Shown piece after piece: positions 8,838 to 22,235 of a stretch of 53,276 nt of DNA. How positions within the stretch are numbered: the first letter of the stretch is position 1; every line of letters starts with the position of its first letter. The notes beneath the pieces are model-generated. The model did no database searches. It was given only the letters and a program-made list of their open reading frames with translations, and was not told where the DNA came from. The position numbers and the translations under genes were made by a program. Origin of the DNA: a virus; IMG/VR virus record IMGVR_UViG_3300042445_002008, positions 1 to 53,276 of that record; one strand, written 5' to 3'.

Positions 8838-8870
8838 TTATTCTGTCTGCGCGGAGCGCAAATTCAATTT
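8838..8870 (-). repeat. Hairpin element, copy 1 of 23
   Basis: TTATTCTG flank; stem GCGC/GCGC extended by a T-A pair; GGA loop at 8853-8855 on plus. Upstream of the gene at 8531. Confidence 0.75.
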
Positions 8871-8929
8871 CCGGCCGCAAAAGCCTAACCCTGCTACTTG
8901 GGGGATAAGTAGCAGGGCTAGGGGTCTGG

Positions 8930-9265
8930 TTAGCCTAAGTGGGCTAAGTAGGTGTCGTAGTGGCGTTCGGTGATTTGGCTTTGTAGTTGCCAATCCGCCA
9001 TAGCGAGTGCGTTGCGTAGCGATAGTTTGCCATTAGCAACTACGGCGGTGGTGATTTCGTGTAGGTCTGCGTCTTGCTTTACGCCTTTGGCAAAAACAAG
9101 GGCAACTTCTTTCAGCTTCTCAGTGTCGTTCTTCTCAACAAGTTCAACAAAGTAGTCTGCGAAACTCTTGTTGTATTCCAAAACTTCTCGCTCTAAAAGA
9201 GTGAGTAGGTCAAAAACGGCGTTGTTCACCATTTCCTTTTCCTGTTCGGGCGTGTATTTGGACAT
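8930..9265 (-). CDS. Hypothetical cassette protein
   Basis: 111 aa, entirely helical in appearance: PEQEKEMVNNAVFDLLTLLEREV, then FADYFVELVEKNDTEKLKEVALVFAKGV. No family recognised. The start is ATG at 9265 with AAGGAG; a leader hairpin with CGGG/CCCG stem lies just upstream. Own promoter (TTGACT-17-TAAACT) and hairpin element. Typical of the cassette block, so likely an early accessory or host-takeover gene. Confidence 0.6.
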   Translation of the reverse strand: MSKYTPEQEKEMVNNAVFDLLTLLEREVLEYNKSFADYFVELVEKNDTEKLKEVALVFAKGVKQDADLHEITTAVVANGKLSLRNALAMADWQLQSQITERHYDTYLAHLG

Positions 9266-9375
9266 AATCTTCTCCTTACGGGTTGGTCTTACCCGCATTT
9301 TCAGTTTACAGGAACGGGTGAGATAAGTCAAGAACGGGAAACGGCGCGGCTTTTTTCTTTGGGTGAAGGGTTCTT

Positions 9376-9409
9376 TTATTCTGTTTGCGCGGAGCGCGAA
9401 TTCAATTTT
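9376..9409 (-). repeat. Hairpin element, copy 2 of 23
   Basis: Stem GCGC/GCGC, GGA loop at 9391-9393. Upstream of the gene at 8930. Confidence 0.8.
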
Positions 9410-9459
9410 CGGCCGCAGACCGAGAACCTAACCTTTCGGCTAGGCTCTCGGTGGTTCGG

Positions 9460-9789
9460 CTAATCTTCGCTGACTACCCTGTGCTGAACAAGATTGCGTT
9501 GAAGAACGCTGGTCATAAATGGTTTGCCGATTGAGCTGTCGTAGAAGGCAACTAACGACATAAGTTCAACAACTTTTTTCAGGGTCGGTAGTTGGATTTT
9601 TACAATGTCGGCTAACTTCTCGGTGGCAAGTGTCCCGATTTCTAGTTGGTTTACCGCATCCGCTACCGAGCGTTCGACATCTTTGCCGATTAGCCACACT
9701 TGCGTTTGGGCTAGGTCAATGTCGAATTGTGGGTTGTTGTTTAGGTTCTCTCGTAGTTCGTCAAGAGTAACTTCGGGCTTTTCGTTCAT
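9460..9789 (-). CDS. Hypothetical cassette protein
   Basis: 109 aa, helical, acidic N-terminus (EKPEVTLDELRENLNNNP). The core ADAVNQLEIGTLATEKLADI is likely a helical pair. Not recognised. SD is AAGGAG directly after a five-base-pair leader hairpin (GCGGA/TCCGC). It stands alone between two terminators. Confidence 0.6.
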   Translation of the reverse strand: MNEKPEVTLDELRENLNNNPQFDIDLAQTQVWLIGKDVERSVADAVNQLEIGTLATEKLADIVKIQLPTLKKVVELMSLVAFYDSSIGKPFMTSVLQRNLVQHRVVSED

Positions 9790-9901
9790 CTTATTTCTCC
9801 TTGCGGATTGGTTGGCTCCGCACTTTCAGTCTACGGGATTTGGTGAAGTAAGTCAAGAACAGGGAACGGCGCGGCTTTTTTCTTTGGAGAACAAGGTCTT
9901 T

Positions 9902-9935
9902 TTATTCTGTTTGAGCGGAGCTCGAATTCAATTTT
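9902..9935 (-). repeat. Hairpin element, copy 3 of 23
   Basis: Stem GAGC/GCTC, GGA loop at 9917-9919. Upstream of the gene at 9460. Confidence 0.8.
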
Positions 9936-9994
9936 CGGCCACAAAAGCCTAGCCCTGCCTATTGGGGGAATAGACAGGGCTAGGTGGTCGGTGG

Positions 9995-10282
9995 TTAGTT
10001 GTTCCACTCGTAGTGGTTGTTGTCCGCACACTTCTTGTCGCATTCGCTTGAGCAGACTTCCATTGGATAGGCTGACTTTCGGCGTAGGTCGAACACAAGC
10101 ATTAGGGCGAGAGTGGTGAGCATTACTAGACTTGCGAGAGTGAATAGCCACATAGCACCTAGTAGGCGTTCGGCACTTTCTAGGTCGCCAATGACGGAGT
10201 ATCGGGTTACTCCGTTCTGCGTGATAGTCGCTAGCGACCAGCAAACGATAGTAACGAAACTGATTGGTATGTATTTGAGCAT
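9995..10282 (-). CDS. Two-TM membrane protein with Cys-rich tail
   Basis: 95 aa. An N-terminal TM (ISFVTIVCWSLATI) and a second TM (LLGAMWLFTLASLVMLTTLAL) are followed by a short tail with Cys residues (EVCSSECDKKCADNNH) that could bind metal or form disulfides. SD is AAAGGA. One of very few membrane proteins in the cassette block. No family recognised. Confidence 0.6.
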   Translation of the reverse strand: MLKYIPISFVTIVCWSLATITQNGVTRYSVIGDLESAERLLGAMWLFTLASLVMLTTLALMLVFDLRRKSAYPMEVCSSECDKKCADNNHYEWNN

Positions 10283-10439
10283 AAGGATTTTCCTTTGTTC
10301 GTGAACAGATGGGTGGTGCGAGGCTCGCCTTGGGGGGTAGCGAGCCTCGCTATTCAGTTGTAAGTCTAGTCTGCCATAGATGGTGAGATAAGTCAAGAAC
10401 GGCAGGGTCGGCGCTTTTTTCTTCAGAGAACGAAGAAAG

Positions 10440-10474
10440 TTATTCTGTTTGCACGGAGTGCGAATTTCAATTTC
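10440..10474 (-). repeat. Hairpin element, copy 4 of 23
   Basis: Stem GCAC/GTGC, a version seen only here; GGA loop at 10455-10457. Upstream of the gene at 9995. Confidence 0.8.
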
Positions 10475-10723
10475 GGTACGCAGTCCGGCGACAAGCGAGC
10501 CGGCCGCCAGCGTCCGAGCCAGGCAAGGCGCTGCCCTGTCTGAGCGAAGCGAAGCCGGGCAGCTCGCAGCCTGGGAGGATCGCGGCAGCCGGGGAGCCGA
10601 GCGAGAGGTGAGCGCGCTGCCGGCGTCTGCAGCGGCGAGGCTGAAAAGCGACGAAGGAGCGTTCAGCTATCGAGCCGCAAAGATCGCGGCAGCTTGCGAA
10701 CCGAGCGAGAACGGGGTGCAAAG
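10475..10723 (-). ncRNA. GC-rich structured segment in place of a gene, possible ncRNA
   Basis: About 250 bases between hairpin elements 4 and 5 hold no SD-supported gene. They are far more GC-rich than the neighbours. Two imperfect repeats contain GCTGCCGCGATC, each next to CTCGCTCGG. TGAGCGAAGCGAAG also occurs at 4.8 kb. Frames are open on both strands, as expected by chance in GC-rich DNA. If element 5 is a promoter, this would be its transcript. No U-tract terminator of its own is seen. Confidence 0.35.
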
Positions 10724-10758
10724 TTATTCTGCGTGGGCGGAGCCCAAATTGAATTTCC
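10724..10758 (-). repeat. Hairpin element, copy 5 of 23
   Basis: Stem GGGC/GCCC plus a T-A pair, GGA loop at 10739-10741. Its downstream unit is the GC-rich segment, not a gene. Confidence 0.75.
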
Positions 10759-10810
10759 ACCGAGCAAACCAAAACCCTGCCACTCGGGGGAAGTGGCAGG
10801 GCGGTCTTGG

Positions 10811-11083
10811 CTAGAACGGCGGAGTCTCTGGGTCGCTGTTCGGTCGGCGGATAAGAAACAACTCGCGGAGTTTTGCTTGAAGGTTCTCAAAGTTCTGCTC
10901 CGCGTAGTGGACAGGCTCGGTGAGGCACTTGGTCGCAAGTGGGTCAATCTCTGGGTGGTTGAAGCACTTGACGAGAAAGAAGTCGTACTCGTACGAGCGG
11001 AGTTCTCTGCCGAAGACCTCGGCTAGAGCCTCCACAGCAAAGACGGCGTTCCGCTCTGTTTGGGTAGTGTTGTCATCGTTCAT
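10811..11083 (-). CDS. Hypothetical cassette protein
   Basis: 90 aa: NAVFAVEALAEVFGRELRSY, then EQNFENLQAKLRELFLIRR; helical. No family recognised. SD is AAGGAG preceded by a GCGGA/TCCGC leader hairpin. A GC-rich terminator of CCTGCCACTT type follows the stop. Confidence 0.6.
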   Translation of the reverse strand: MNDDNTTQTERNAVFAVEALAEVFGRELRSYEYDFFLVKCFNHPEIDPLATKCLTEPVHYAEQNFENLQAKLRELFLIRRPNSDPETPPF

Positions 11084-11196
11084 CTGGTGTTTTCTCCTTG
11101 CGGATTTGTCGGCTCCGCTCTTTCAGTTTAGCCGAACAGGGTGACATTGGTCAAGGAGGTCACCGCGGGCTTTTTTCTTTGGACAACAAAAGAAAA

Positions 11197-11230
11197 TTAT
11201 TCTGTTTGAGCGGAGCTCAATTTCAATTTT
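11197..11230 (-). repeat. Hairpin element, copy 6 of 23
   Basis: Stem GAGC/GCTC, GGA loop at 11212-11214. Upstream of the gene at 10811. Confidence 0.8.
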
Positions 11231-11286
11231 CGGCCGCACGCCGAGAGCCCTGCCACTTGGGGGAAAGTGGCAGGGCGGTCTTGGGG

Positions 11287-11586
11287 TTACTGCTCGGCGT
11301 TTACAAGTTGCTGGCAGTAGTTCACTACATCTTGCGGGTGGTCGGAAAACTGGACAAGTGCTTCGCCAATTAGTCCTGCCTCAAGAAAGCCAGTAATCTC
11401 GCTGTGAATGGTGGTCTGCGTAGTGCCAAAATACTCTTCGCTGAAACCGATTAGGTCGAGGAACAACATAAACGGCGTTCCTTTTCGTGCGTCGTAGTTG
11501 GTAGACCATTCGGCAAGATAGGCAACCTTGTCGGCGTTCTTCGGTGGGTTTTCAGTTAGGTCTGAAAATGTCGTTTTGGTGGACAT
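11287..11586 (-). CDS. Hypothetical cassette protein
   Basis: 99 aa, mixed alpha/beta; ends HPQDVVNYCQQLVNAEQ. Not recognised. SD is AAGGAG with a GCGG/CCGC leader hairpin whose loop carries ACACAACCAG. Single-gene cassette. Confidence 0.6.
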   Translation of the reverse strand: MSTKTTFSDLTENPPKNADKVAYLAEWSTNYDARKGTPFMLFLDLIGFSEEYFGTTQTTIHSEITGFLEAGLIGEALVQFSDHPQDVVNYCQQLVNAEQ

Positions 11587-11697
11587 TTGTATCTTCTCCT
11601 TGCGGCTGGTTGTGTCCGCTCTTCCAGTCTACGCTGTCGGGTGAGCCGAGTCAAACACCGCAGCGTCGCCGGCTTTTTCTTTGGATTCAGGGGTTTC

Positions 11698-11731
11698 TTA
11701 TTCTGTTTGAGCGGAGCTCAAATTTCAATTT
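11698..11731 (-). repeat. Hairpin element, copy 7 of 23
   Basis: Stem GAGC/GCTC lengthened to seven pairs by TTT/AAA, GGA loop at 11713-11715. Upstream of the gene at 11287. Confidence 0.8.
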
Positions 11732-11788
11732 CCGGCCGCAAGAACCTAGCCCCACTACTTCCTTCAAGTAGCAGGGCTAGGTGGTCTT

Positions 11789-12076
11789 TTACTCGTCTCG
11801 GTGCTCGTCGAGTGTAGTGCCTTCTTCTTTATTGAACACGCGGTCGGTGATGTCGCAAGCAGTCTCAAACTGAGTCTGGCGGTAGTTGGCATCTAGGTCA
11901 TCGTCTAGTGCCATTGACTTGTAGAAGTCGGTAGCAAGAGAAAGTTCACTTTTGACTACGGCGATGATGTGCTCTAGACTATTTCTAGCATCGTTAGCGA
12001 AGATTGCTCCGCAACTACAAGCGGCTCGGTAGTCGTTGGTTGACTCATACCAAGTGTCGATAATTTCGTGGTTCAT
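11789..12076 (-). CDS. Hypothetical cassette protein
   Basis: 95 aa from ATG at 12076. It has CSCGAIF near the N-terminus and a helical acidic body (SELSLATDFYKSMALDDD). Not recognised. Strong SD, leader hairpin and a textbook promoter (12114-12142) precede it. Confidence 0.6.
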   Translation of the reverse strand: MNHEIIDTWYESTNDYRAACSCGAIFANDARNSLEHIIAVVKSELSLATDFYKSMALDDDLDANYRQTQFETACDITDRVFNKEEGTTLDEHRDE

Positions 12077-12113
12077 CTGTTTCTCCTTGCGGATTGGTTG
12101 GCTCCGCTCTTCA

Positions 12114-12142
12114 AGTCTACGGCACATCGCAAGACAAGTCAA
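12114..12142 (-). promoter_or_regulatory. Representative cassette promoter
   Basis: TTGACT-17-TAGACT. The -10 is followed within ~10 bases by the leader hairpin (GCGGA/TCCGC) and then AAGGAG. The same order of parts precedes most genes from 8.9 to 22.1 kb. Confidence 0.75.
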
Positions 12143-12183
12143 GGATGGTCGCGTCGGTTTCTCTTTTTGGATTCCTGGTTTTC

Positions 12184-12218
12184 TTATTCTGTTTGAGCGG
12201 AGCTCAAATTTCAATTTC
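12184..12218 (-). repeat. Hairpin element, copy 8 of 23
   Basis: Seven-pair stem TTTGAGC/GCTCAAA, GGA loop at 12199-12201. It starts right after the terminator of the gene before (CCCCCTAAC/GTTAGGGGG, 12223-12250). Confidence 0.85.
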
Positions 12219-12255
12219 AACGAAAAACCCCCTAACCGAAGTTAGGGGGCAGTGA

Positions 12256-12405
12256 TTACCAATTTTCGTTGATGAACTCTAAGAGTTCTCTGTATGATTT
12301 TCCATCTGAAACCATTTTTACCAACTCGGCGTTTTCAGAAAGCAAGTCCGCCGGAACGGTGGTATCTCCTGAAAGCATAGCGAGAGTATGGATTATCGTT
12401 GCCAT
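12256..12405 (-). CDS. Small protein downstream of a pseudoknot-like element
   Basis: 49 aa: MATIIHTLAMLSGDTTVPADL, then a helical stretch ELVKMVSDGKSYRELLEFINENW. The ATG at 12405 follows AAGAAAAGAGAAA. It has no promoter or terminator of its own and is read from the gene at 12467; the 62-base gap is filled by a pseudoknot-like element. Not recognised. Confidence 0.6.
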   Translation of the reverse strand: MATIIHTLAMLSGDTTVPADLLSENAELVKMVSDGKSYRELLEFINENW

Positions 12406-12431
12406 TTGTTTCTCTTTTCTTCTTGGTTGTG

Positions 12432-12463
12432 GTGAGCCTTTTTACAACTTGCTCGGGTTGTGG
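12432..12463 (-). other. Four-copy 3' element, copy 1 (potential H-type pseudoknot)
   Basis: Minus strand: stem 1 CAAC/GTTG, stem 2 GAGC/GCTC, A-rich third loop AAAAAG. It starts five bases after the TAA of the gene at 12467 and ends ~25 bases before the ATG at 12405. Confidence 0.5.
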
Positions 12464-12466
12464 AAC

Positions 12467-12667
12467 TTAGAGAGCGGTCTGAACTACTTCAAACTTCACT
12501 CCACGCTGACGCAACTCAACTAGAAAGTCGCTGGCGTCGTATTCGTCTAACCAGACGAAATCGTTGTGCTTGGCAAATGCTCGGTAGGCAGTAACGAATT
12601 TGAACTCGTTCTTATCTACTCGGAGAAAACCTTCGCCTTGTGCTTTCGCAAAAACAAACTTGGTCAT
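12467..12667 (-). CDS. Hypothetical 66-aa protein
   Basis: 66 aa from ATG at 12667 (SD GAGGAGGAG, the strongest in the block). Compact alpha/beta: KFVFAKAQGEGFLRVDKN, then DEYDASDFLVELRQRGVKFE. Not recognised. Its TAA is followed after five bases by the four-copy 3' element, and the reading frame stays open for ~40 codons past the stop. Confidence 0.6.
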   Translation of the reverse strand: MTKFVFAKAQGEGFLRVDKNEFKFVTAYRAFAKHNDFVWLDEYDASDFLVELRQRGVKFEVVQTAL

Positions 12668-12796
12668 TTCTCCTCCTCTCGATTTGTTAGAGGCTTCCCC
12701 TTGCGGGCTGGACACTACGAGCCTATCACGATTGGGGCAGCCAAGTCAAATACTAAGCGACCGCGGCGGATTTTCTTTTTTGGATTCCTGGTTTTG

Positions 12797-12831
12797 TTAT
12801 TCTGTTTGAGCGGAGCTCCAATTTCAATTTC
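12797..12831 (-). repeat. Hairpin element, copy 9 of 23
   Basis: Stem GAGC/GCTC, GGA loop at 12812-12814. Upstream of the gene at 12467. Confidence 0.8.
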
Positions 12832-12873
12832 CCGGCACGAAGAAAGAGCCAACCTTTCGGCTGGCTCTCTCGT

Positions 12874-13230
12874 CTACTCGCTTTCACAATAGCCGCACAG
12901 ACCTTCTTGGTGAATAAACCAATCGTGGGGACAAAAGTCGGTTTCTTGTCGGTGAGCGATTGCGTCATCAACAAAAGCAAGAGCCTCGGCGTAGGTGTAT
13001 TCCACTTCATCAACGACAATCGTCTTACCTAAATCCATTGAGGAAGTGTAAATCCTAGATACTTCGCGAAGTGTGTCTAGCGAATACTCAAGATACGGAT
13101 TTGGCTTTGGCTCAAATGACTTCGCGAAGTCGTCAAAGTTTTCAGCGGTGAGCGTTCCGCCATTGGCGATAAACTCACTAACGGCAAGCAACACTTCGTC
13201 AATGCCTTCTTGTTTTTTGGGTGTGGTCAT
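12874..13230 (-). CDS. Hypothetical protein with C-terminal Cys/His cluster
   Basis: 118 aa from ATG at 13230. Acidic helical body. The last 20 residues hold CPHDWFIHQEGLCGYCESE, a possible C-H-C-C zinc site. Not recognised. SD AAGGAG and a GCGGA/TCCGT leader hairpin (G-U closing pair). Confidence 0.6.
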   Translation of the reverse strand: MTTPKKQEGIDEVLLAVSEFIANGGTLTAENFDDFAKSFEPKPNPYLEYSLDTLREVSRIYTSSMDLGKTIVVDEVEYTYAEALAFVDDAIAHRQETDFCPHDWFIHQEGLCGYCESE

Positions 13231-13339
13231 TTTTATCTCCTTACGGATTGGTTGTATCCGCATACCTAGGTTATCACGCCAGCCTGACATAAGTCAAGAA
13301 CCGAGCCGCGGCGGCTTTTTCTTTGGATTCAGGGGTTTC

Positions 13340-13373
13340 TTATTCTGTTTGAGCGGAGCTCAAATTTCAATTT
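13340..13373 (-). repeat. Hairpin element, copy 10 of 23
   Basis: Seven-pair stem TTTGAGC/GCTCAAA, GGA loop at 13355-13357. Upstream of the gene at 12874. Confidence 0.85.
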
Positions 13374-13419
13374 CACGGCACGCCGAAAAGCCTAACCCTT
13401 TCGGGCTAGGCTCTCGGTG

Positions 13420-14007
13420 CTAGGCGAACAAGTCGTATTTGTGCCTGTTCTCGTCTATGCGATTGGTCAGCCAATCCTGCGGAATGGTGTAGGCTCGCTT
13501 GCTGTTGTGCCAAGAGATAGGGGCATCATTGAAAGCAACCTCCACGACGGTTTCGTGAATGAATAGTCGCTCACCATTTCTGTTGAAGTAGTAGGCAAAG
13601 AAGTAATCAGACCAATACTTACTCCAACTAGGCACTCCGCGGTAGTTGTCGCTTGGCAACACAAACCTAGCGTAGTGAAGTCGGTATCTACCTCGCTCGG
13701 CTCTCGGTCTGCGGATAAGTTCTTCCAGACCGAACGGCTGACGAATGAACAAATCGCTATCTATCCAATTCTCAACAGCAACCCTCCACTCGTAGTCGTT
13801 ATCAACAAGAGCGATTTTTAGTGGTTCGGCGGTTTTGCTGTATCCGCCGATTTGTCCGTAATCTCTCGGCTTTGGGTAGTCATACTTGACAAACTGCGAG
13901 GGCATAAGGATTTTGTTATCGGCTGGCGTTTCCAAAACTCTGTGCGTTGGTATGCTATCAACGCTGTCGTCTAGGAAGTGGGTTCGTGCTTTGTAGACAT
14001 CAAACAT
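13420..14007 (-). CDS. Hypothetical 195-aa protein
   Basis: 195 aa, aromatic-rich (SWSKYWSDYFFAYYFNRNGE), with a basic stretch FGLEELIRRPRAERGRYR. Probably a soluble alpha/beta protein. The largest in the cassette block. No family recognised. SD GAGGAG after a GCGG/CCGC leader hairpin. Confidence 0.6.
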   Translation of the reverse strand: MFDVYKARTHFLDDSVDSIPTHRVLETPADNKILMPSQFVKYDYPKPRDYGQIGGYSKTAEPLKIALVDNDYEWRVAVENWIDSDLFIRQPFGLEELIRRPRAERGRYRLHYARFVLPSDNYRGVPSWSKYWSDYFFAYYFNRNGERLFIHETVVEVAFNDAPISWHNSKRAYTIPQDWLTNRIDENRHKYDLFA

Positions 14008-14114
14008 AGGTTCTCCTCTGCGGTTGGTTGTATCCGCTCTCTAAGTCTTTCATAGATAGTGAGGTTAGTCAAGTAGGCTGACCGCGGCGACTTTTTTTTC
14101 TGAGAAGGGTTCTT

Positions 14115-14150
14115 TTATTCTGTTTGAGCGGAGCTCAATTTTCAATTTTC
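14115..14150 (-). repeat. Hairpin element, copy 11 of 23
   Basis: Stem GAGC/GCTC, GGA loop at 14130-14132. Upstream of the gene at 13420. Confidence 0.8.
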
Positions 14151-14191
14151 AAATGCCAAACGACCTACCCTTTCGGGCAGGTCGCTCTTGG

Positions 14192-14566: not shown

Positions 14567-14570
14567 TATT

Positions 14571-14674: not shown

Positions 14675-14710
14675 TTATTTTGTATGCGCGGAGCGCTAAT
14701 TCAATTTCCG
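14675..14710 (-). repeat. Hairpin element, copy 12 of 23 (variant flank)
   Basis: Stem GCGC/GCGC, GGA loop at 14690-14692. The flank is TTATTTTG rather than TTATTCTG, the one copy with a changed base there. Upstream of the gene at 14192. Confidence 0.75.
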
Positions 14711-15108: not shown

Positions 15109-15142
15109 TTATTCTGTTTGCGCGGAGCGCGAATTTCAATTT
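15109..15142 (-). repeat. Hairpin element, copy 13 of 23
   Basis: Stem GCGC/GCGC, GGA loop at 15124-15126. Upstream of the gene at 14760. Confidence 0.8.
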
Positions 15143-15160
15143 CCGGAACGGCGAATAGCC

Positions 15161-15770: not shown

Positions 15771-15804
15771 TTATTCTGTCTGCGCGGAGCGCTAATTTCA
15801 ATTT
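15771..15804 (-). repeat. Hairpin element, copy 14 of 23
   Basis: Stem GCGC/GCGC, GGA loop at 15786-15788. Upstream of the two-gene unit at 15659-15161. Confidence 0.8.
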
Positions 15805-15852
15805 CAGCGAATGGCCGAAGCCACCTAACCATTTCTGATTAGGTGGCGTTGG

Positions 15853-16361: not shown

Positions 16362-16396
16362 TTATTCTGCTTGCGCGGAGCGCGAATTTCAATTTC
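16362..16396 (-). repeat. Hairpin element, copy 15 of 23
   Basis: Stem GCGC/GCGC, GGA loop at 16377-16379. Upstream of the gene at 15853. Confidence 0.8.
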
Positions 16397-16434
16397 AGCG
16401 GTAGGTCACAGGGGCTACCCGAAGATAGCCCCTG

Positions 16435-16599
16435 CTGGCGATAGTTTTTCGTGTCTCAACTTCGGATTGCTCCTAAGCCCTCACTCCGCTTACCAACGGC
16501 TAGTATTGCGGTCTACTAGCAGACGCCAAGTCTCAGCACATTCTAGAAAACTGTCTTGGCTCGTAGTGAGCAGTTTAGCCACTTGCTCAGGTGGGTGGT
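16435..16599 (-). other. Long 3' region after the gene at 16600
   Basis: About 165 bases between a stop codon and the cassette terminator (16405-16430), far longer than in other cassettes. It holds the second copy of the four-copy 3' element. Past it, the -1 frame is open for about 30 codons (SQDSFLECAETWRLLVDR) but has no usual start with SD. Either an untranslated RNA or a decayed or recoded gene. Confidence 0.45.
16566..16596 (-). other. Four-copy 3' element, copy 2
   Basis: Stem 1 CCAC/GTGG, stem 2 TGAGC/GCTCA, loop CTAAACT. It begins five bases after the TAA of the gene at 16600. Confidence 0.5.
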
Positions 16600-16908
16600 T
16601 TATTCAGACGGACTTACGATTTCCTCGAACGCCTTGTTGACTTTGTCGGTTTCGGCTTTCTCGGCTCGTTCGATAATGTTGTGGACTAGTTCGCCAGCCT
16701 TGTCGGCGGCTCTAATGCCATTCATCATCAAGCCTAGCATTCCGCCGTGTTCCACAATGTCTTTTGGAAGTGCGTCTGCTGGAACATCTGGGTCTACTCC
16801 GTAGTGAATGGTCATCGCCATAATTCCACAGAGAGCAACAAGGTTCTTGACTTCTTCTTGAGACAAGTCGAAGTCTGGTAACTCATTTGGGTTTCTTGCT
16901 GAAAGCAT
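16600..16908 (-). CDS. Hypothetical 102-aa cassette protein
   Basis: 102 aa. LSQEEVKNLVALCGIMAMTI suggests a helical N-domain; the middle has an Asp/Pro-rich loop VDPDVPADALPKD; the C-terminus is an amphipathic helix ending in acidic residues. Not recognised. Strong SD and GCGG/CCGC leader hairpin. Confidence 0.6.
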   Translation of the reverse strand: MLSARNPNELPDFDLSQEEVKNLVALCGIMAMTIHYGVDPDVPADALPKDIVEHGGMLGLMMNGIRAADKAGELVHNIIERAEKAETDKVNKAFEEIVSPSE

Positions 16909-17018
16909 AGTTTCTCCTTCGCGGTTGGTTGTGTCCGCATAATCAGTTTAGCGGTTCTGCCTGACATCTGTCAAGAGAGGCGGCGCGTTCTTTTTTTTTT
17001 TTGGATTTCTGGTTTTGA

Positions 17019-17053
17019 TTATTCTGTTTGCGCGGAGCGCAATTTAGAATTTC
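17019..17053 (-). repeat. Hairpin element, copy 16 of 23
   Basis: Stem GCGC/GCGC plus T-A, GGA loop at 17034-17036. The outer flank reads AATTTAGAATTT instead of the usual AATTTCAATTT. Confidence 0.8.
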
Positions 17054-17112
17054 ACGCACCAAAACCTCAAGCCGAGGGATTGGGGGGAGGCTCGGCTTGA
17101 GGCGGTCTTTGG

Positions 17113-17397
17113 TTAGAGGATTAGCAAAGCCTCTTTTGCGTCTTTCAGGGTTGTGTATCCCTGAAACTCGCCAAGAGTTTCTATTCCTTGTTTGGTGGCA
17201 ACTCTGACGGTGTAAAGGTTTTTAGTTCCGTCAAAGTTTTTTTCGCTTGACACAAAACGCCAGCCGTCGTCGTGCTTGGCTAGGGTGTCGAAGTAGACGA
17301 TAGATTGCCAAAACTTCATTGACTCTGGGCTAAACCAAGTAGGATTTGCCTTTTGGATTTGTGTCCAAGTTTTATTGGTTGCGGAAGTGTTCATCAT
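17113..17397 (-). CDS. Hypothetical 94-aa protein
   Basis: 94 aa from the first of two adjacent ATGs (17397). SMKFWQSIVYFDTLAKHDDGW, then NLYTVRVATKQGIETLGEFQGY: helix followed by a beta sheet. Not recognised. SD AAGGAGA after a GTGG/CCAT leader hairpin. Confidence 0.6.
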   Translation of the reverse strand: MMNTSATNKTWTQIQKANPTWFSPESMKFWQSIVYFDTLAKHDDGWRFVSSEKNFDGTKNLYTVRVATKQGIETLGEFQGYTTLKDAKEALLIL

Positions 17398-17503
17398 TTT
17401 TATCTCCTTATGGTTGGTTGTGTCCACACTACAAGGTTACCATTTACGGCAACCTCGGTCAAGTATGGTCGGGCGGACTTTTTTCTTTGGATGTTTGTTT
17501 TTC

Positions 17504-17540
17504 TTATTCTGTTTGAACGGAGTTCAAATTATTCAATTTC
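17504..17540 (-). repeat. Hairpin element, copy 17 of 23 (GAAC/GTTC)
   Basis: Stem TTTGAAC/GTTCAAA, seven pairs; the only copy with this version, both arms changed together. GGA loop at 17519-17521. Confidence 0.85.
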
Positions 17541-17587
17541 CGGCCAGCCAGCCTCACCTCTCCTTTCGGAGAGGTTCGGCTTGAATA

Positions 17588-18091
17588 CTACTCGTATTCC
17601 TTACAGTTGGCACAGATACCGTTCTCGTCTTCGTAGACTTCGGCAGGAATACCTCCGTCACATTGCGAGCAAGACTCGGCTGGCGTGAATGTCCACCTGC
17701 CTGTCCCTGTCGGTTCATCGTGAGAATAACGAACGGCATACAACTCGTTACCCTTGATAGTAAACTTGTTCTTGAAGTCACCGTCGATTTCCATAACCTT
17801 GTGGATTTCAGACACATCAACGAAACCTGCTCCGTTTGTACGATTCCATCGAATACTCTCAGCGATAACCATAACCTTGCCATCGTCTTTCAAGCCTCGG
17901 CGTTCTAGCCAAATAGGTAGGAAGTTGTCGTAAAACTGAAAGACTTCTTCTCGATAACAGTCATAGCACCATTCAGGTCGTTCTGGATAGCCGTACTCGT
18001 CTAACTTTGCCTCGCCTGTTTCTTCGTCATAGATTTCACAGACACAGTCGCTGGTTAGTGTTGCCTTGTATTCTTGTGTTTCCTCTGTCAT
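17588..18091 (-). CDS. Zinc-ribbon protein, 167 aa
   Basis: 167 aa from ATG at 18091. An N-terminal Cys group (DCVCEIY, then EWCYDCYREE) and a C-terminal zinc ribbon (SCSQCDGG, then ICANCKEYE) flank a middle domain with ESIRWNRTNGAGFVDVSE. Not recognised; the zinc ribbons suggest protein or nucleic-acid binding. SD GAGGGA. Confidence 0.65.
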   Translation of the reverse strand: MTEETQEYKATLTSDCVCEIYDEETGEAKLDEYGYPERPEWCYDCYREEVFQFYDNFLPIWLERRGLKDDGKVMVIAESIRWNRTNGAGFVDVSEIHKVMEIDGDFKNKFTIKGNELYAVRYSHDEPTGTGRWTFTPAESCSQCDGGIPAEVYEDENGICANCKEYE

Positions 18092-18199
18092 TTGTTCCCT
18101 CATTCTACGGATTGTCCCGTAAGTCTAGTCTTTCACACTTCGCGACTTGAGTCAAGTCGTGGGTCGGTCGCGAGCTTTTTTCTTTGGAAAATGCTTTTC

Positions 18200-18234
18200 T
18201 TATTCTGTCTGGGCGGAGCCCTAATTTCAATTTT
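18200..18234 (-). repeat. Hairpin element, copy 18 of 23
   Basis: Stem GGGC/GCCC, GGA loop at 18215-18217. Upstream of the gene at 17588. Confidence 0.8.
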
Positions 18235-18274
18235 CCAGCGGAAAAACCCCTAGCCTTTCGGCTAAGGGTCTTGA

Positions 18275-18664
18275 CTACTCTCCGCGAGTTTCTCCGCATA
18301 AGTCGTGAAAACCATTCATCAACTCATCTTCGTTGTCGCTTTCGATTAGTTGCTTACAATAGTGACAATAAACTTCTTCATCATCATCATCATTGTCATA
18401 CTCCATACGCTCACGCCAAGCGTCCGCAACATCACCGGGGTCTGCCTCGGTGTTGTATGGAGTTAGATAGGTGTCGCTGTCGCAAGAGCAACAGGGTCTA
18501 TCCTCACATTGGCAACTGCCTCCGTTTGACGACATTAGGTATGGAAGTTCGGCTTTTGCTCGCTCGGCAAGTTCTCGCCAAGACGAACGGTTGAATGGGT
18601 GAGAGTTACGCTCGGCGTGTCCAAGAGCCTCAATGATTTTGTTGTATTCGTATTCAGATAACAT
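18275..18664 (-). CDS. Cys-rich protein with acidic linker
   Basis: 129 aa from ATG at 18664. A helical N-terminus (EYEYNKIIEALGHAERN) precedes a Cys cluster CQCEDRPCCSC, an acidic linker YDNDDDDEEVYCHYC and a second Cys pair. At least two zinc sites are likely. Not recognised. Leader hairpin GTGG/CCAC. Confidence 0.6.
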   Translation of the reverse strand: MLSEYEYNKIIEALGHAERNSHPFNRSSWRELAERAKAELPYLMSSNGGSCQCEDRPCCSCDSDTYLTPYNTEADPGDVADAWRERMEYDNDDDDEEVYCHYCKQLIESDNEDELMNGFHDLCGETRGE

Positions 18665-18772
18665 AGTGTTCTCCCTTGTGGCTGGTTGTATCCACAGGTC
18701 AAGGTTATCACGATAGCCTGACATTCGTCAAGAGCGGTTCGTCGGACTTTTTTCTTCTGAAAATAGTTTTTC

Positions 18773-18807
18773 TTATTCTGTCTGGGCGGAGCCCTAATTT
18801 CAATTTT
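18773..18807 (-). repeat. Hairpin element, copy 19 of 23
   Basis: Stem GGGC/GCCC, GGA loop at 18788-18790. Upstream of the gene at 18275. Confidence 0.8.
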
Positions 18808-18855
18808 TGGCCAGAAAGCCAGAAACCACACCTTTCGGTGTGGCTCTGGTTCGGT

Positions 18856-19302
18856 TTAGTAGCCTCGGTCTTTGATTTCTACTTCTGTTCCGTAGTCAAG
18901 GTCAAGGTCGTATCCGTCATTTCGGCGGTCATACGACAGCGAGATTTCGGCTTCAATCTCATCTTCCAAGCCTTCAAGCGACTTACCAAGCGGAGTGGTA
19001 ATCGTTCCTGTAACTTCAATGATGATTTTGACAGAGTGTTCTTCGGTTAGTTCCCACTCAAAGATTTCAGCAAGGCTAGTAACAAACTCGCTGTCGCCGT
19101 CAAGCACTTCTTCCTTGACAGCCTCAACGACAAGATTTTCGGCTTGTGTGATTTGGCTTTTGAGTTCGTTGCGGTCTGCGATTGCTCGGTCAAACTGCGA
19201 GGTCTTGTAAGCCAAGTTGCTTTCAAGAGAGGCTACCTTTGCGAGTAGGGTTTCAATAGAAACTTCCTCGGTTGGTGTTTCTGGGTTTTCGTGTTCGGAC
19301 AT
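18856..19302 (-). CDS. Hypothetical protein with N-terminal coiled coil
   Basis: 148 aa from ATG at 19302. Residues ~15-65 form a coiled coil (VSIETLLAKVASLESNLAYK). The C-terminal half is beta-rich and acidic (EHSVKIIIEVTGTITTPLG). Not recognised. Confidence 0.6.
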   Translation of the reverse strand: MSEHENPETPTEEVSIETLLAKVASLESNLAYKTSQFDRAIADRNELKSQITQAENLVVEAVKEEVLDGDSEFVTSLAEIFEWELTEEHSVKIIIEVTGTITTPLGKSLEGLEDEIEAEISLSYDRRNDGYDLDLDYGTEVEIKDRGY

Positions 19303-19414
19303 AATGCCCTCTGCTTTCTGTGGTTGGTTGTATCCACATAATAATTCAACCACAATCCGTATTCCAAGTCAAGTAGGGGTCGGCGGACTTTTTTCTTCTG
19401 AAAATAGTTTTTAA

Positions 19415-19450
19415 TTATTCTGTTTGTGCGGAGCACTAATTTCAATTTCC
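19415..19450 (-). repeat. Hairpin element, copy 20 of 23
   Basis: Stem GTGC/GCAC, GGA loop at 19430-19432. Upstream of the gene at 18856. Confidence 0.8.
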
Positions 19451-19501
19451 GCCGAGCAACGAAAAACCCCCAACTTTCGTTGAGGGTTGTTCGTTGAATG
19501 T

Positions 19502-19876
19502 TTATCCGTAGACTAACTTTCCAAAGAAAGCGTATTGAAGGATTGCGTCTGAACCACAAAAGTCCAAGTCCTCCCAATCTATCTTTGCCCCGCAGTGGTG
19601 GTAGTCGTCTTTGATTGCGAGAGCGTAGCCACGAACAAGGTCATCAATGTTGAGTTCCTTCTTTACGAACTTGTCGTAATCTTCGGGGTCCTCACACCAG
19701 AGCGTAAGTAACCCTGGTTCGTTCCAATCCGAGCCTTCGCTGTATTTCCACTTCTGCCACCAAGAGCCTTCCTCCCAGCCACTACCGAGAACGCAAGACC
19801 AGAACTCTCTTACATCAACAGCGAACGGAATAATGATACTTCCGTAGTTCTTTTTTACTTCTAGTTTTTCACTCAT
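19502..19876 (-). CDS. Hypothetical protein, third gene of a three-gene cassette
   Basis: 124 aa from ATG at 19876. Trp-rich centre (REFWSCVLGSGWEEGSWWQK) and VRGYALAIKDDYHHCGAKID. This resembles small phage proteins of unknown function. It overlaps the preceding gene by eight bases; its SD GAGGAA is supplied by that gene's final codons. Confidence 0.6.
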   Translation of the reverse strand: MSEKLEVKKNYGSIIIPFAVDVREFWSCVLGSGWEEGSWWQKWKYSEGSDWNEPGLLTLWCEDPEDYDKFVKKELNIDDLVRGYALAIKDDYHHCGAKIDWEDLDFCGSDAILQYAFFGKLVYG

Positions 19877-20090
19877 TTTGTTCCTCATTTCCTAGATAGT
19901 GAGTGTTTGTGTTTTCGTCTGTCCAATACATAGCGGTTTGGCAGTTTGGGCAGAACGGGGTTGTGTAGTTATCCATACAGCCATACCAGCCAGAATACCA
20001 AACATCAGATTTGGCACAGGTGTCAGAGCAGTAGAGAACTTCGTCAATGGTGTCGCCATTTATGTCTTGAATAAAAACTACATTAGCCAT
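19869..20090 (-). CDS. Small zinc-ribbon protein
   Basis: 73 aa. CSDTC (~22) and FCPNCQTA (~48) form a predicted zinc site; ends GNEEQNE, whose codons form the SD of the next gene. Not recognised. Start overlaps the preceding gene (AATAATGGCTAA). Confidence 0.6.
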   Translation of the reverse strand: MANVVFIQDINGDTIDEVLYCSDTCAKSDVWYSGWYGCMDNYTTPFCPNCQTAMYWTDENTNTHYLGNEEQNE

Positions 20091-20238
20091 TATTTATCTT
20101 CTTCATTTCCGCACGAAACAACTGCGTTGCCTCACGCTTGGTGTAAAAGAAATACTGACGAGATACTAAGTATCCGTTTTTGTCGGAGGCGTAAAGTTCC
20201 CACGCACCCTGAAAAGTTCTTCGGTAATTGATTGCCAT
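20083..20238 (-). CDS. Small basic protein, first gene of a three-gene cassette
   Basis: 51 aa: MAINYRRTFQGAWELYASDK, then YFFYTKREATQLFRAEMKK. Basic, beta then helix. SD is TAGGAG. Its stop overlaps the ATG of the next gene. Not recognised. Confidence 0.6.
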   Translation of the reverse strand: MAINYRRTFQGAWELYASDKNGYLVSRQYFFYTKREATQLFRAEMKKINNG

Positions 20239-20404
20239 TTTTTCTCCTAGTTGGTTGATAGGTAGAACCGAGTGAGAGAGTGAATGAGGGGGAGGTCTTT
20301 ACTCTATCTCACTCGGTTCTAAGTCAAGTCTAAACGAAAGCCCTGACATTTGTCAATACAAGTTTGAGGTCGGCGGACTTTTTCTTTTTTGAAAAAGGTT
20401 TTAA

Positions 20405-20440
20405 TTATTCTGTTTTGGGCGGAGCCCAATTTTCAATTTC
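20405..20440 (-). repeat. Hairpin element, copy 21 of 23
   Basis: Stem TTGGGC/GCCCAA, GGA loop at 20421-20423. Upstream of the three-gene cassette. Confidence 0.8.
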
Positions 20441-20533
20441 CGCTCAAAGGCGTTAGTCGCCTACCGAGGAGAAAGCATAACGCCTCGGTAGACGACCTCA
20501 ACACACTATTTACAGAAAGGAGATTTCTATGAA

Positions 20534-20566
20534 TAGAGCCTTTTTCTAACTTGCTCAGGTTACTTG
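20534..20566 (-). other. Four-copy 3' element, copy 3
   Basis: Stem 1 TAAC/GTTA, stem 2 GAGC/GCTC, A-rich loop AAAAAG. A TAA overlaps stem 1 in the frame continuing from the upstream gene. Confidence 0.45.
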
Positions 20567-20640
20567 CCAATGTCATCTCTGAATAATGTAGTTTGGGGGG
20601 AAACTACCTCAATGTTGAACTTACAAGGCGAAGTCTTGGT

Positions 20641-20674
20641 GGTAAGCAGTTTTACAACTTGCTTAGGTTGTGGA
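20641..20674 (-). other. Four-copy 3' element, copy 4
   Basis: Stem 1 ACAAC/GTTGT, stem 2 TAAGC/GCTTA (both arms changed compared with copies 1-3), loop AAAACT or similar. Starts ~11 bases after the TAG of the gene at 20683. Confidence 0.5.
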
Positions 20675-20682
20675 GGGTGCGA

Positions 20683-21003
20683 CTACGCAGTTCTGATGTA
20701 GTCGTATTCGGTTGTCCGTAGAGTGGCTTGGAAAGCCTCTGGAAACATAGTTTCCAACATCTCTCGGTCAAACGAAGTGTTCTTGCTAGATACCAACGAG
20801 AACGCTTTGGTCTTGCCAACATAGCCAACCTTTTTGCCAGCCTTGTCAAGAGCCTCGCGAAGTAGTTGCTCGGCTTGTGCCTTGCGTTCCTTTGCTGATT
20901 TTTCGTCTGCCTTTGCCTGAACAAAGTCAGCGATAGCGTCTTTCACCTTTTTTGAAGTGATAGATACTGCGTCGTCTGGCAACTGAAATTCGTTATTGCT
21001 CAT
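20683..21003 (-). CDS. Hypothetical coiled-coil protein
   Basis: 106 aa. Residues ~15-55 are a charged coiled coil (KDAIADFVQAKADEKSAKER); the C-terminus has FSLVSSKNTSFDREMLETMF. Resembles small phage host-nuclease-inhibitor-like coiled-coil proteins only in shape. Ends in a TAG followed by the four-copy element; the frame stays open ~40 codons beyond. Confidence 0.6.
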   Translation of the reverse strand: MSNNEFQLPDDAVSITSKKVKDAIADFVQAKADEKSAKERKAQAEQLLREALDKAGKKVGYVGKTKAFSLVSSKNTSFDREMLETMFPEAFQATLRTTEYDYIRTA

Positions 21004-21125
21004 TTGTATTTCTCCTTGTGAGATTGTCTATTTGCCTCACATAACAATCTAACCACACAGCACCGACATTTGTCAATACCAACTTTGGAGGGTCGCGACT
21101 TTTTTCTTTTGAAAAAGGTTTTTAA

Positions 21126-21162
21126 TTATTCTGTTTTGAGCGGAGCTCAATTATTCAATTTC
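21126..21162 (-). repeat. Hairpin element, copy 22 of 23
   Basis: Stem TTGAGC/GCTCAA, GGA loop at 21142-21144. Upstream of the gene at 20683. Confidence 0.8.
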
Positions 21163-21209
21163 CGCTGGCAAACCAAAGCCCGAACGGATTTCTCCATTCG
21201 GGCTATCGG

Positions 21210-21605
21210 TTAGGAAACTTTGACCCAACGACTAGCGGTTTGTAGCAAGTGGTCGTAGTCGCCACTTGTGCTTTCCTTGTAGTATTCGTCAAGTTCCGTC
21301 TGTGGAACGCCAGCCTTACGGAGTGCCTTTTGAACAGCACCCATAATCGCAAAGGCGTTTCCGTCTGTGCCTGTGAGTTTTACTTTTACATCTGGGTATT
21401 TGATGTTTGACATTTTTTCACTTTCGGTTAGTTTGATTTTTGTTGCTAGGGCATCAACGCCACCTTGTCGGTATGCGTCAAGTATGTCCTCGATAATCCT
21501 GTCATTTATGACTTCAAGGAAGTTTCCGTCATTGACTTCTTCTCCCATCATAAAGGACAAGTCCTCGGTGTCGTATTCCATTACGATTGTGATTTTGGCT
21601 TTCAC
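21210..21605 (-). CDS. Fusion of two small phage domains
   Basis: 131 aa from GTG at 21605 (SD GAAAGG). The C-terminal ~67 residues, from MSNIKYPDVKVKLTG through GNAFAIMGAVQKALRKAG to SGDYDHLLQTASRWV, match a stand-alone small protein that I know from many actinobacteria and their phages. The N-terminal half (KAKITIVMEYDTEDLSFMMG) resembles a separate small protein. No stop separates them. An internal ATG could also give the C-terminal part alone. Confidence 0.65.
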   Translation of the reverse strand: MKAKITIVMEYDTEDLSFMMGEEVNDGNFLEVINDRIIEDILDAYRQGGVDALATKIKLTESEKMSNIKYPDVKVKLTGTDGNAFAIMGAVQKALRKAGVPQTELDEYYKESTSGDYDHLLQTASRWVKVS

Positions 21606-21609
21606 TTTG

Positions 21610-21858
21610 TTACCTTTCGTCATTCGGGTCATAGTCCGCGAAGTAATCATCTCGGTCTTGGTCGAGGCTACTCTCTCGGTTGGTTACTCCGCAGAACTCA
21701 CATTCCACAGAGTAGTTGCCCCAATCGTCAGTTGTTGCTTGACTTGCCTCGTTGGTTTTTTCGCACTCCTCGTTCTCGCAATCGAACTCGTCATACGAAA
21801 CTTCCTGTGCGTAGATACCAGACCCACGCATAGAACCCTCTGGGTAGTTGCTACTCAT
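21610..21858 (-). CDS. Zinc-ribbon protein, 82 aa
   Basis: 82 aa, acidic. FDCENEECEKTN (~26) and VECEFCGVTN (~51) form a predicted zinc ribbon; the tail is DQDRDDYFADYDPNDER. Stop lies four bases before the GTG of the next gene and carries its SD. Not recognised. Confidence 0.6.
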   Translation of the reverse strand: MSSNYPEGSMRGSGIYAQEVSYDEFDCENEECEKTNEASQATTDDWGNYSVECEFCGVTNRESSLDQDRDDYFADYDPNDER

Positions 21859-22103
21859 TAGTCCTCCTTTGGTCTTAGAATAATGATTGGTGTGTTCTCG
21901 TCATAGTCATACGAGTTCGTTAGTAGTTCTTCTAGCGTGTCTACCCACAAGCAACCTACTCCGTCTGGTGAGTAGAAGTAGTCGGTTTGGCGACCCATTT
22001 CATCTTGGTAGATTACATCTGTTCGCCAGCCCTCCTCCATACCACGCCATTCGTAGTCTGCGTGGGTTAGATACATAACTGATTTTTTGGTTGGTTTAGT
22101 CAT
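21858..22103 (-). CDS. Hypothetical 81-aa protein
   Basis: 81 aa from ATG at 22103 (SD AAGGAAC). Aromatic and acidic: HADYEWRGMEEGWRTDVIYQ, then CLWVDTLEELLTNS. Not recognised. First gene of a three-gene cassette and the most upstream gene of the hairpin-element block. Confidence 0.6.
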   Translation of the reverse strand: MTKPTKKSVMYLTHADYEWRGMEEGWRTDVIYQDEMGRQTDYFYSPDGVGCLWVDTLEELLTNSYDYDENTPIIILRPKED

Positions 22104-22198
22104 TGTGTTCCTTTCCATAATACAAGTCTAGCGGTTTGGGCTGACAAGTCAAGCGTGGGTCGAGGTCGGCGTTCTTTTTCTTTTGAAAAAGGTTTTAG

Positions 22199-22235
22199 TT
22201 ATTCTGGCTGTGCGGAGCACGAATTATTCAATTTC
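22199..22235 (-). repeat. Hairpin element, copy 23 of 23
   Basis: Stem GTGC/GCAC, GGA loop at 22214-22216; flank TTATTCTGGCTG. The most upstream copy; none is found upstream of the SSB gene. Confidence 0.75.

Follow-up and report, generated by a model that had tools for sequence, protein, structure and literature searches.

The window analysed here is a stretch of 53,276 nucleotides of viral DNA (IMG/VR record IMGVR_UViG_3300042445_002008) that probably comes from an uncultured phage of freshwater actinobacteria. Its 8.8-22.2 kb block holds an array of short hairpins that precede genes (Table 1), and the array is restricted to this block. A search for GGA loops between pairing arms returned 23 hairpins on the plus strand, with loop starts from 8853 to 22214, and no GGA hairpins of the same kind on the minus strand. 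On the plus strand the stems read GAGC (8 copies), GCGC (7), GGGC (4), GTGC (2), GCAC (1) and GAAC (1). All 23 copies have a triloop, always GGA, and the contiguous stem spans 4 bp in 12 copies and 5-7 bp in 11. These counts confirm the 23 copies, fixed loop and list of stems given in a sequence-only reading of the same DNA. That reading also placed each copy upstream of the next unit, which holds generally but not for the copy at 10739, where a GC-rich stretch without a clear gene follows and no ATG or GTG ORF of at least 50 aa starts within 260 bases downstream. This stretch is probably non-coding; it can accommodate a 101-aa ORF starting at TTG, which has a blastp match in the related record G003.

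Table 1. Hairpin elements and neighbouring features of the array; loop positions refer to the plus (template) strand.
Feature	Position	Strand	GGA loop	Stem	Remark
Hairpin element 1	8838..8873	-	8853-8855	TGCGC	
Hairpin element 2	9376..9411	-	9391-9393	GCGC	
Hairpin element 3	9902..9937	-	9917-9919	GAGC	
Hairpin element 4	10440..10475	-	10455-10457	GCAC	
GC-rich, palindrome-rich stretch	10470..10724	-			between hairpins 5 and 4; blocks common to relatives
Hairpin element 5	10724..10759	-	10739-10741	TGGGC	then GC-rich stretch, no clear gene
Hairpin element 6	11197..11232	-	11212-11214	TTGAGC	
Sigma70-like promoter downstream of hairpin (example)	11626..11654	-			TTGACT-17-TAGACT
Hairpin element 7	11698..11733	-	11713-11715	TTTGAGC	
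Sigma70-like match enclosing hairpin (example)	11700..11728	-			TTGAAA-17-CAGAAT
Hairpin element 8	12184..12219	-	12199-12201	TTTGAGC	
Hairpin element 9	12797..12832	-	12812-12814	GAGC	
Hairpin element 10	13340..13375	-	13355-13357	TTTGAGC	
Hairpin element 11	14115..14150	-	14130-14132	TTGAGC	
Hairpin element 12	14675..14710	-	14690-14692	GCGC	
Hairpin element 13	15109..15144	-	15124-15126	GCGC	
Hairpin element 14	15771..15806	-	15786-15788	GCGC	
Hairpin element 15	16362..16397	-	16377-16379	GCGC	
Hairpin element 16	17019..17054	-	17034-17036	TTGCGC	
Hairpin element 17	17504..17539	-	17519-17521	TTTGAAC	
Hairpin element 18	18200..18235	-	18215-18217	GGGC	
Hairpin element 19	18773..18808	-	18788-18790	GGGC	
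Hairpin element 20	19415..19450	-	19430-19432	GTGC	
Hairpin element 21	20406..20441	-	20421-20423	TTGGGC	
Hairpin element 22	21127..21162	-	21142-21144	TTGAGC	
Hairpin element 23	22199..22236	-	22214-22216	GTGC	leads the array in the direction of transcription
SSB-like gene (phrog_44)	22359..22757	-			directly upstream of array

Across the 23 window copies, stem pairs 1 to 4 are Watson-Crick in all 92 cells. Pair 3 takes all four types (C-G 8, A-T 9, G-C 4, T-A 2), pair 2 is G-C in 21 copies and A-T in 2, and pairs 1 and 4 are constant. Among the outer pairs, pair 5 is Watson-Crick in 11 of the 23 copies, pair 6 in 16 and pair 7 in 15; together they include 7 coding-strand G-U cells, 6 template-strand G-T cells and 14 other mismatches. 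For the 22 distinct rows the covariation score was 0.294; shuffles averaged 0.099, 0/500 of them reached the observed value, and sliding gave a maximum of 0.080. Covariation, as proposed from the sequence, is therefore upheld by the score but not by simpler counts: just two pairs vary on both sides, and neither the number of such pairs nor of pair types is higher than in shuffles. Copies inside one phage are not independent of each other, and the hairpin flanks are conserved in sequence besides the structure. G-U pairs are absent from the inner four pairs in the window (0/92) and in its sister phage L023 (0/52), compared with 30/260 (11.5%) in terminator stems of window units and 21/143 in those of L023 units, the terminator stems having been chosen with G-U permitted. 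This absence, together with the loop rule described below, speaks for a structure at the DNA rather than the RNA level. Computed DNA folding energies of the two strands are near equal (-5.4/-5.5, -4.1/-4.2 and -4.2/-4.0 kcal/mol), and the strand argument therefore rests on published loop motifs.

Analogous hairpins, whose stems and loops differ, occupy the same position in relatives identified through their terminase. The template strand reads C-G(N or NN)A-G in 94/98 elements of five phage records, and the remaining four are flipped copies in G003 with GAA on the coding strand. The rule covers 23/23 window copies (all GGA), L023 (9 GATA and 4 GAA), and 10/14, 19/19 and 29/29 elements in G003, G008 and G010, three sets that were selected by paired stems, so that their pairing is no test. 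G008 and G010, which are close sisters, use all four central bases in their loops. When no loop sequence was prescribed, triloop hairpins with A/T flanks were of the C-G..A-G class in 14/14 (G008) and 22/22 (G010) cases. Both d(cGNAg) and d(cGNNAg) are established stable DNA loop motifs. In the literature d(cGNNAg) is described as a stable tetraloop obtained by selection, the stability of DNA triloops is attributed mainly to loop bases 1 and 3 (excerpt of PMC5090098), and extrusion in phage N4 is said to require a G:C closing pair plus a 5'G and 3'A in the loop (excerpt of PMC4496689). The last rule is followed by every window copy and by the same 94/98 elements over the five phages.

Hairpin presence is patchy, and a terminase tree with 39 rows requires three changes, of which well supported branches force two or more. 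Stems often differ between orthologous units of the window, L023 and G003. The close relative G004 (96% terminase identity) and G006 have spacers of the same architecture that lack these hairpins, and the hairpin is thus dispensable in these two phages.

Phage N4 has three early promoters that are read by its virion RNA polymerase. Each is a template-strand hairpin with a 3-base loop and a stem of about 5-7 bp, extrusion depends on supercoiling and activation on SSB, and the enzyme reads a purine at -11, G at -8 and C at +1. Our scan, applied to the first 10 kb of N4, found three hairpins, all C-GNA-G with -8G and a coding G at +11, consistent with these three promoters. Window copies share with them the template-strand hairpin, the C-G closing pair, the GNA triloop and -8G (21/23), while their contiguous stems sit at the lower limit of the N4 range or beneath it. 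Position -11 is a purine in 23/23 window copies; in L023 the four triloops have A at -11, and -8G is found in 10/13 copies. The coding G that N4 has at a distance of 11 bases from the centre of the loop recurs in most window copies and in all of those in L023 (13/13). The resemblance to N4 early promoters proposed in the sequence-only reading is thus stronger than its author could tell, and the template C expected at this distance is present in 20/23 copies and missing from three. Additionally, the 13-base core GCTGCTCCGCAGC of N4's third hairpin also occurs in one element of G008 (L030) and three of G010 (L032). In contrast to N4, with three hairpins, the window has 23 in one block, the phages are unrelated, no vRNAP was found here, and a TTGAC promoter lies downstream of the hairpins. 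The window's relatives also carry GATA tetraloops or any central base, and G003, G008 and G010 have any base at -11 and a +11 G in just 1/14, 1/19 and 1/29 elements.

The suggestion that the hairpins stand in tandem with host promoters fits the data, as TTGAC lies about 60 bases (58-67) downstream of the loop centre in 21/23 window units, 19 of which have a -10 element matching TAGACT at 4 or more of 6 positions. In G003 this distance is 60-66 bases in the 10/13 units with a match. A further promoter-like sequence, TTGAAA-17-CAGAAT, surrounds the hairpin in 12/23 copies; a simple scan gave 14 TTGAAA...CAGAAT matches over the 23 hairpins, and 123/20,000 flank shuffles reached the consensus score of the enclosing match. 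Because the median promoter-like score at the hairpin drops from 10 (window) and 9.5 (L023) to 7, 8 and 8 in G003, G008 and G010, the enclosed promoter is not general. According to the excerpt of PMC4496689, placing the N4 P1 hairpin between the -35 and -10 elements of an rrnB promoter abolished its activity, which a gyrase inhibitor restored. The hairpin likewise fills the 17-base spacer in the 12 window copies, whereas here the arrangement is natural and multi-copy, its promoter is predicted, and the geometry is not retained in the more distant hairpin-bearing relatives.

Two contigs and the window appear to close a genome of ~135 kb. Models for N4-vRNAP, T7-type and multisubunit RNA polymerases (phrog_2206, phrog_414, PF00940, PF00623) found nothing in G002 and G020, and the N4 mini-vRNAP had no match in G002; N4, T7 and cellular controls were all detected, although a strongly diverged enzyme could escape. 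The phage-encoded hairpin-dependent polymerase of the sequence-only reading, for which a large T7-like enzyme was to be sought in the remaining genome, thus did not appear with the models used in records that seem to close it. The idea is further weakened by the breaking of the N4 -11 purine and +1 rules in G003, G008 and G010 and by the hairpin-free G004. The second gene after that for portal encodes 3163 aa with DnaG-type primase, UvrD helicase and exonuclease domains, and can speculatively be named as an alternative reader of the hairpins. Its primase model matches G020, which is part of the window's genome, and G021, from the same metagenome as L023, with which we infer it forms one genome. 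The model matches 0/5 long array-free relatives (G012, G014, G015, G017, DSL-LC01), and the G008 and G010 records stop short of this region.

We tentatively prefer the possibility that supercoil-extruded DNA mini-hairpins control host-type (sigma70) transcription. The element would be a DNA mini-hairpin with template C-GGA-G, a stem of 4-7 bp and flanks rich in A/T, retained in the gap that separates a unit's terminator from the host-type promoter of the unit that follows. Like the hairpins of the N4 early promoters, it would be extruded by negative supercoiling. Once extruded, it would alter initiation by a sigma70-type RNA polymerase. In the window and in part of the L023 copies the hairpin fills the spacer of the upstream promoter-like sequence, a position that makes a supercoil switch its likeliest action. 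Upon extrusion the upstream start would be off and the downstream promoter (TTGACT...TAGACT) would work alone, while both starts could work when the hairpin is not extruded. Apart from those of N4-like phages, we know of hardly any natural DNA hairpins that act in transcription. In several related lineages of phages that probably infect freshwater actinobacteria, each record has 13 to 29 hairpins that follow one DNA-loop rule, and no N4-type polymerase was found in the single genome that could be closed. If extruded, they would be natural elements under the control of supercoiling, with 23 of them in a single block, and would make regulation of ordinary sigma70 transcription by GNA hairpins testable. 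The gene list supplies the giant primase-helicase as a candidate alternative reader.

An N4-like mechanism, in which a phage RNA-making enzyme reads the folded template hairpin and starts at the G of GAAUAAG, is unlikely. The GGA loop, the -8G and the +11 G argue for it, as in the three N4 hairpins, and its reader could be a polymerase diverged beyond detection or the giant primase-helicase near the portal gene, whose primase model matches G020 and G021. The negative RNA polymerase models speak against it, as do the relatives that lack the -11 rule and almost always the +11 G, and TTGAC promoters already serve 21/23 units. The primase link comes from two sister phages and possibly reflects one event. 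A narrower version, in which a giant, perhaps virion-borne primase-helicase of DnaG type, the product of the second gene past the portal, uses the hairpins for priming or as promoters, is the least probable reading we considered. The N4 strategy of reading extruded template-strand hairpins would then have arisen independently, with a primase in place of an RNA polymerase. Neutral or recombinational palindromes, kept perfect by template switching during replication that changes both sides together, would travel with their spacers and mark cassette boundaries without regulation. Other palindromes in the spacers (the 10470-10724 stretch), the flipped loop in G003, the patchy presence on the terminase tree and the differing stems of orthologous units are in line with such an origin, which we nevertheless regard as distinctly unlikely given the nearly constant distance to TTGAC, the orientation kept in 94/98 elements and the 75.6-kb second contig, in which no A/T-flanked hairpin of the class was found.

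Two further alternatives were considered. At the RNA level, read-through transcripts could contain a UNC-loop hairpin that serves in processing, stability or antitermination, which would suit a covarying element on the transcribed strand after terminators, with some G-U among its outer pairs. We consider this very unlikely, as inner pairs have no G-U and the hairpin, lying upstream of the unit's own promoter, is absent from transcripts that start there. The loop in RNA would be UCC, UAUC, UUC, another UNC or flipped GAA; we know of no matching RNA loop family, and Rfam gave no family at threshold in 8300-23000. Slightly more doubtful still is a weak intrinsic terminator for antisense transcription behind each promoter. 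A terminator d-score, for a GC stem with a T tract behind it, is positive in the antisense direction in 16/19 G008 and 25/29 G010 elements, and a simple scan flags 13/23 window hairpins on the plus strand. The same score, however, passes 0/23 in the window, 1/12 in L023 and 1/14 in G003, to be read with the caution that it passes only 3/23 of the window's sense terminators (median -21.2 kcal/mol). The median window hairpin reaches only -5.4 kcal/mol, and an antisense terminator would leave the GNA loop rule unexplained.

The nearest named relative of the window's phage is Actinomycetia phage DSL-LC01 (terminase 77%), which differs in having no hairpin array and just two scattered hairpins of the class. 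Its small-gene block nevertheless occupies an equal gene-order position and likewise lies behind repeated promoter-like boxes, in this case a 33-copy box around TTCTAAAGATGTTATAAT.

In the window, a single virus record of 53,276 bases, the 23-copy array of GGA hairpins described in the sequence-only reading was recovered in full: searching for GGA loops whose flanks pair gave 23 copies of this kind on the plus strand and none on the minus strand. On the transcribed (minus) strand, a typical unit runs from a gene through a terminator stem-loop, AAATTGAAATT, the hairpin as stem-TCC-stem, ACAGAATAA, an A-rich box, TTGACT...TAGACT, a 5'-UTR stem-loop and a Shine-Dalgarno sequence to a gene. Each element is located upstream of the promoter of its own unit, and the loop centre lies 58-67 bases upstream of TTGAC in 21 of the 23 units. 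The distance is 60-66 bases in 10 of 13 units of the related record G003, these 10 being the ones with a match, and a TTGAC match is missing in 8 of 19 elements of G008 and 18 of 29 of G010, two further relatives. The hairpins are restricted to the array block. G002, an IMG/VR contig that seems to belong to the same genome as the window, carries 24 class triloops (template strand C-G(N or NN)A-G) with A/T-rich flanks, 23 of which are the array, and none was found in G020, another such contig, or in G021, from the metagenome of the closest sister, L023.

Other features of the window are listed in the Table. The 5'-UTR stem-loop, GCGGA..ACAACCA..TCCGC, has a similar site in many units, and its arms, judged by eye, seem to covary among them. 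A stretch between two hairpins is rich in GC and palindromes and lacks a TTGAC promoter; blocks such as GCTGAACGCTCCTTCGTCGCTTTTCAGC occur there and also in L023 and G010, other blocks occur in G003, and no Rfam family reached threshold for the stretch, within which a TTG-start open reading frame can be drawn.

Table. Positions of the hairpin array and of other features in the window, related contigs and phage N4
Feature	Record	Position	Remarks
GGA hairpin array	window	8853-22214	plus strand; loop starts
GC- and palindrome-rich stretch	window	10470-10724	between two hairpins
5'-UTR stem-loop	window	11594-11620	directly upstream of Shine-Dalgarno
WhiB-like protein	window	46056-46586	includes WhiA-type helix-turn-helix part
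Giant gene, 3163 aa	G020	C1:6023-15514	after portal; exonuclease, UvrD helicase and DnaG-type primase domains
Giant gene, 4294 aa	G020	C1:16069-28953	after portal; exonuclease and Dda/PIF1 helicase domains
Control hairpins	N4, first 10 kb	95, 564, 4553	same scan
Promoter-like box, 33 copies	L018 (DSL-LC01)	22600-43300	around TTCTAAAGATGTTATAAT
T-rich palindrome, repeated	L052	12620-13840	TTTCTGAAGTCTTCAGATTT
CTTCG-loop palindrome cluster	L026	10127-11066	array hairpins not found
CTTCG-loop palindrome cluster	L029	9853-11522	array hairpins not found

The inner four pairs of the window stems are Watson-Crick in all 92 cells, with all four pair types at pair 3 and no variation at pairs 1 and 4. 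Outer pairs 5, 6 and 7 are Watson-Crick in 11, 16 and 15 of the 23 copies respectively, and the remainder includes seven coding-strand G-U and six template-strand G-T cells. The covariation claimed for the stem holds in that its score exceeded all 500 shuffles, but both sides change in only two pairs. No G-U occurs in the inner four pairs of the window (0/92) or of L023 (0/52, with one A-C). The terminator stems of these units, a set selected with G-U permitted, have it in 30/260 (window) and 21/143 (L023). The contrast supports a DNA over an RNA structure but does not prove it, since half of the 92 cells are invariant, the copies are related to one another and G-U is present in the outer pairs. 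Folding energies with DNA parameters showed no difference between the strands, so the strand argument depends on published motifs.

Across the five records, the template strand has C-G...A-G flanking a three- or four-base loop in 94 of 98 elements. The loop is GGA in all 23 window copies, GATA (9) or GAA (4) in L023, and GTA, GAA, GGA or GCA in 10 of 14 G003 elements, the other four being flipped; all four GNA loops occur in G008 (n = 19) and G010 (n = 29). Elements from G003, G008 and G010 were selected for paired stems and class loops, and those of the latter two include only perfect stems of five or more pairs with A/T-rich flanks, so in these three records the rule rests on a freer search. 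Among A/T-flanked hairpins with any three-base loop, the class made up 14 of 14 in G008 and 22 of 22 in G010, and 14 of 17 flank-defined G003 spacers had a class or flipped hairpin, the three without a class hairpin being excluded from the 14 counted. GCGNAGC mini-hairpins are exceptionally stable. The title of a cited study describes d(cGNNAg) as a selected stable DNA tetraloop motif, and the stability of DNA triloops is reported to be dominated by the first and third loop base (PMC5090098). On balance, the element is probably a structure of DNA rather than of RNA and belongs with the hairpins of N4. A CsrA-type GGA loop was rejected because transcripts of the array genes would carry UCC, not GGA, and a UNCG or GNRA RNA tetraloop does not fit the UAUC/GATA loop of the sister and has no closing pair in the tetraloop register.

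According to PMC4496689, N4 hairpin extrusion requires the closing pair and the loop ends, and the N4 enzyme recognises -11 A/G, -10G, -8G and +1C. As a control, our scan found exactly three hairpins in the first 10 kb of N4, consistent with its three early promoters. G020 (75,583 bases, from the same metagenome as G002) shares 127 identical bases with G002 at one end and 4,216 with the window at the other, and G002 covers window positions 4173-53276 at 99.94%. Joined in this way, the three appear to form a complete circular genome of about 135 kb. The RNA polymerase models phrog_2206, phrog_414, PF00940 and PF00623 had no match in G002 or G020, and their positive controls were all detected (N4 with both PHROG models, T7 with PF00940 and 14 of 14 cellular sequences with PF00623). 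The phage-encoded, hairpin-dependent polymerase proposed earlier therefore found no support in these contigs, in which a very diverged polymerase could still be present. The array is not assigned to the N4 virion RNA polymerase promoter family, because the polymerase was looked for and not found.

G020 also encodes two giant proteins. Both G020 and G021 gave a primase match, whereas five long relatives that lack a hairpin array gave none, a co-occurrence that counts as one observation because G020 and G021 are sisters; for the primase relatives L341 and L342, no link to hairpins was established. The 4294-aa protein was rejected as a reader special to hairpin-bearing phages, as it has partial matches in G012, G014 and G015, all of which lack the array, and as its domains are of exonuclease and PIF1/Dda-type helicase. 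Its gene has no match in DSL-LC01, the nearest named phage, whose own 3289-aa giant protein had no PDB match and no Pfam family above the cut-off.

Most likely, although we favour this only tentatively, the hairpins are supercoil-extruded control elements of host-type transcription. A plain sigma70 scan of 8700-22400 returned 34 matches versus 10.6 expected, 14 of them TTGAAA...CAGAAT enclosing a hairpin, with a spacer of exactly 17 in 12 of 23 copies; shuffles of the consensus flanks scored as well in 123 of 20,000 cases. An N4 P1 hairpin in such a geometry is reported to have silenced the rrnB promoter in a gyrase-dependent manner (PMC4496689), and that engineered construct has the same geometry as the window hairpins inside TTGAAA...CAGAAT. 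The promoter-like score around the hairpin is lower in G003, G008 and G010, which counts against an enclosed promoter as a general mechanism; this scoring reports the five commonest matches per phage and does not include an L023 copy that lies close to the start of its contig. Scored instead as antisense terminators, most elements of G008 and G010 pass, but the reading fails in the window, L023 and G003, by a score that also rejects most of the window's own sense terminators. Maintenance of the palindromes by template switching is possible, given the flipped loops in G003 and the further palindromes present in the spacers.

By terminase, the phage falls near Actinomycetia phage DSL-LC01 (77%), described from a lake metagenome with a predicted Actinomycetia host (PMC10611076), and Microbacterium phages. 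Among the best 80 of 431 terminase relatives, at least three class hairpins with A/T-rich flanks were found in L021 and L022 (near-copies of the window), L023, L024 (the same as G003), L030 (G008) and L032 (G010). The other 74 had fewer than three, a number that is no count of absences, as many are short or without the block. L031 has 12 class triloops in GC-rich surroundings, outside the A/T-flank filter. In G004, whose terminase is 96% identical, the spacers are the same but carry no such hairpins. On a terminase tree of 39 rows the hairpin label requires three changes. No terminase relative was confirmed among genome contigs, named phages had no match to part of the window array or to 8 kb of the G010 array, and no description of these elements was found in the open-licence literature. 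With a looser pattern, the matches listed were one per contig, except in the two near-copies of the window; a separate, stricter pattern gave single matches in the viral contigs L010, L011 and L017, where no paired stem was found, and these were regarded as chance. Palindromes of other kinds cluster in L026 and L029 and recur in L052, and the equivalent block of DSL-LC01 carries a promoter-like box instead of hairpins (Table).
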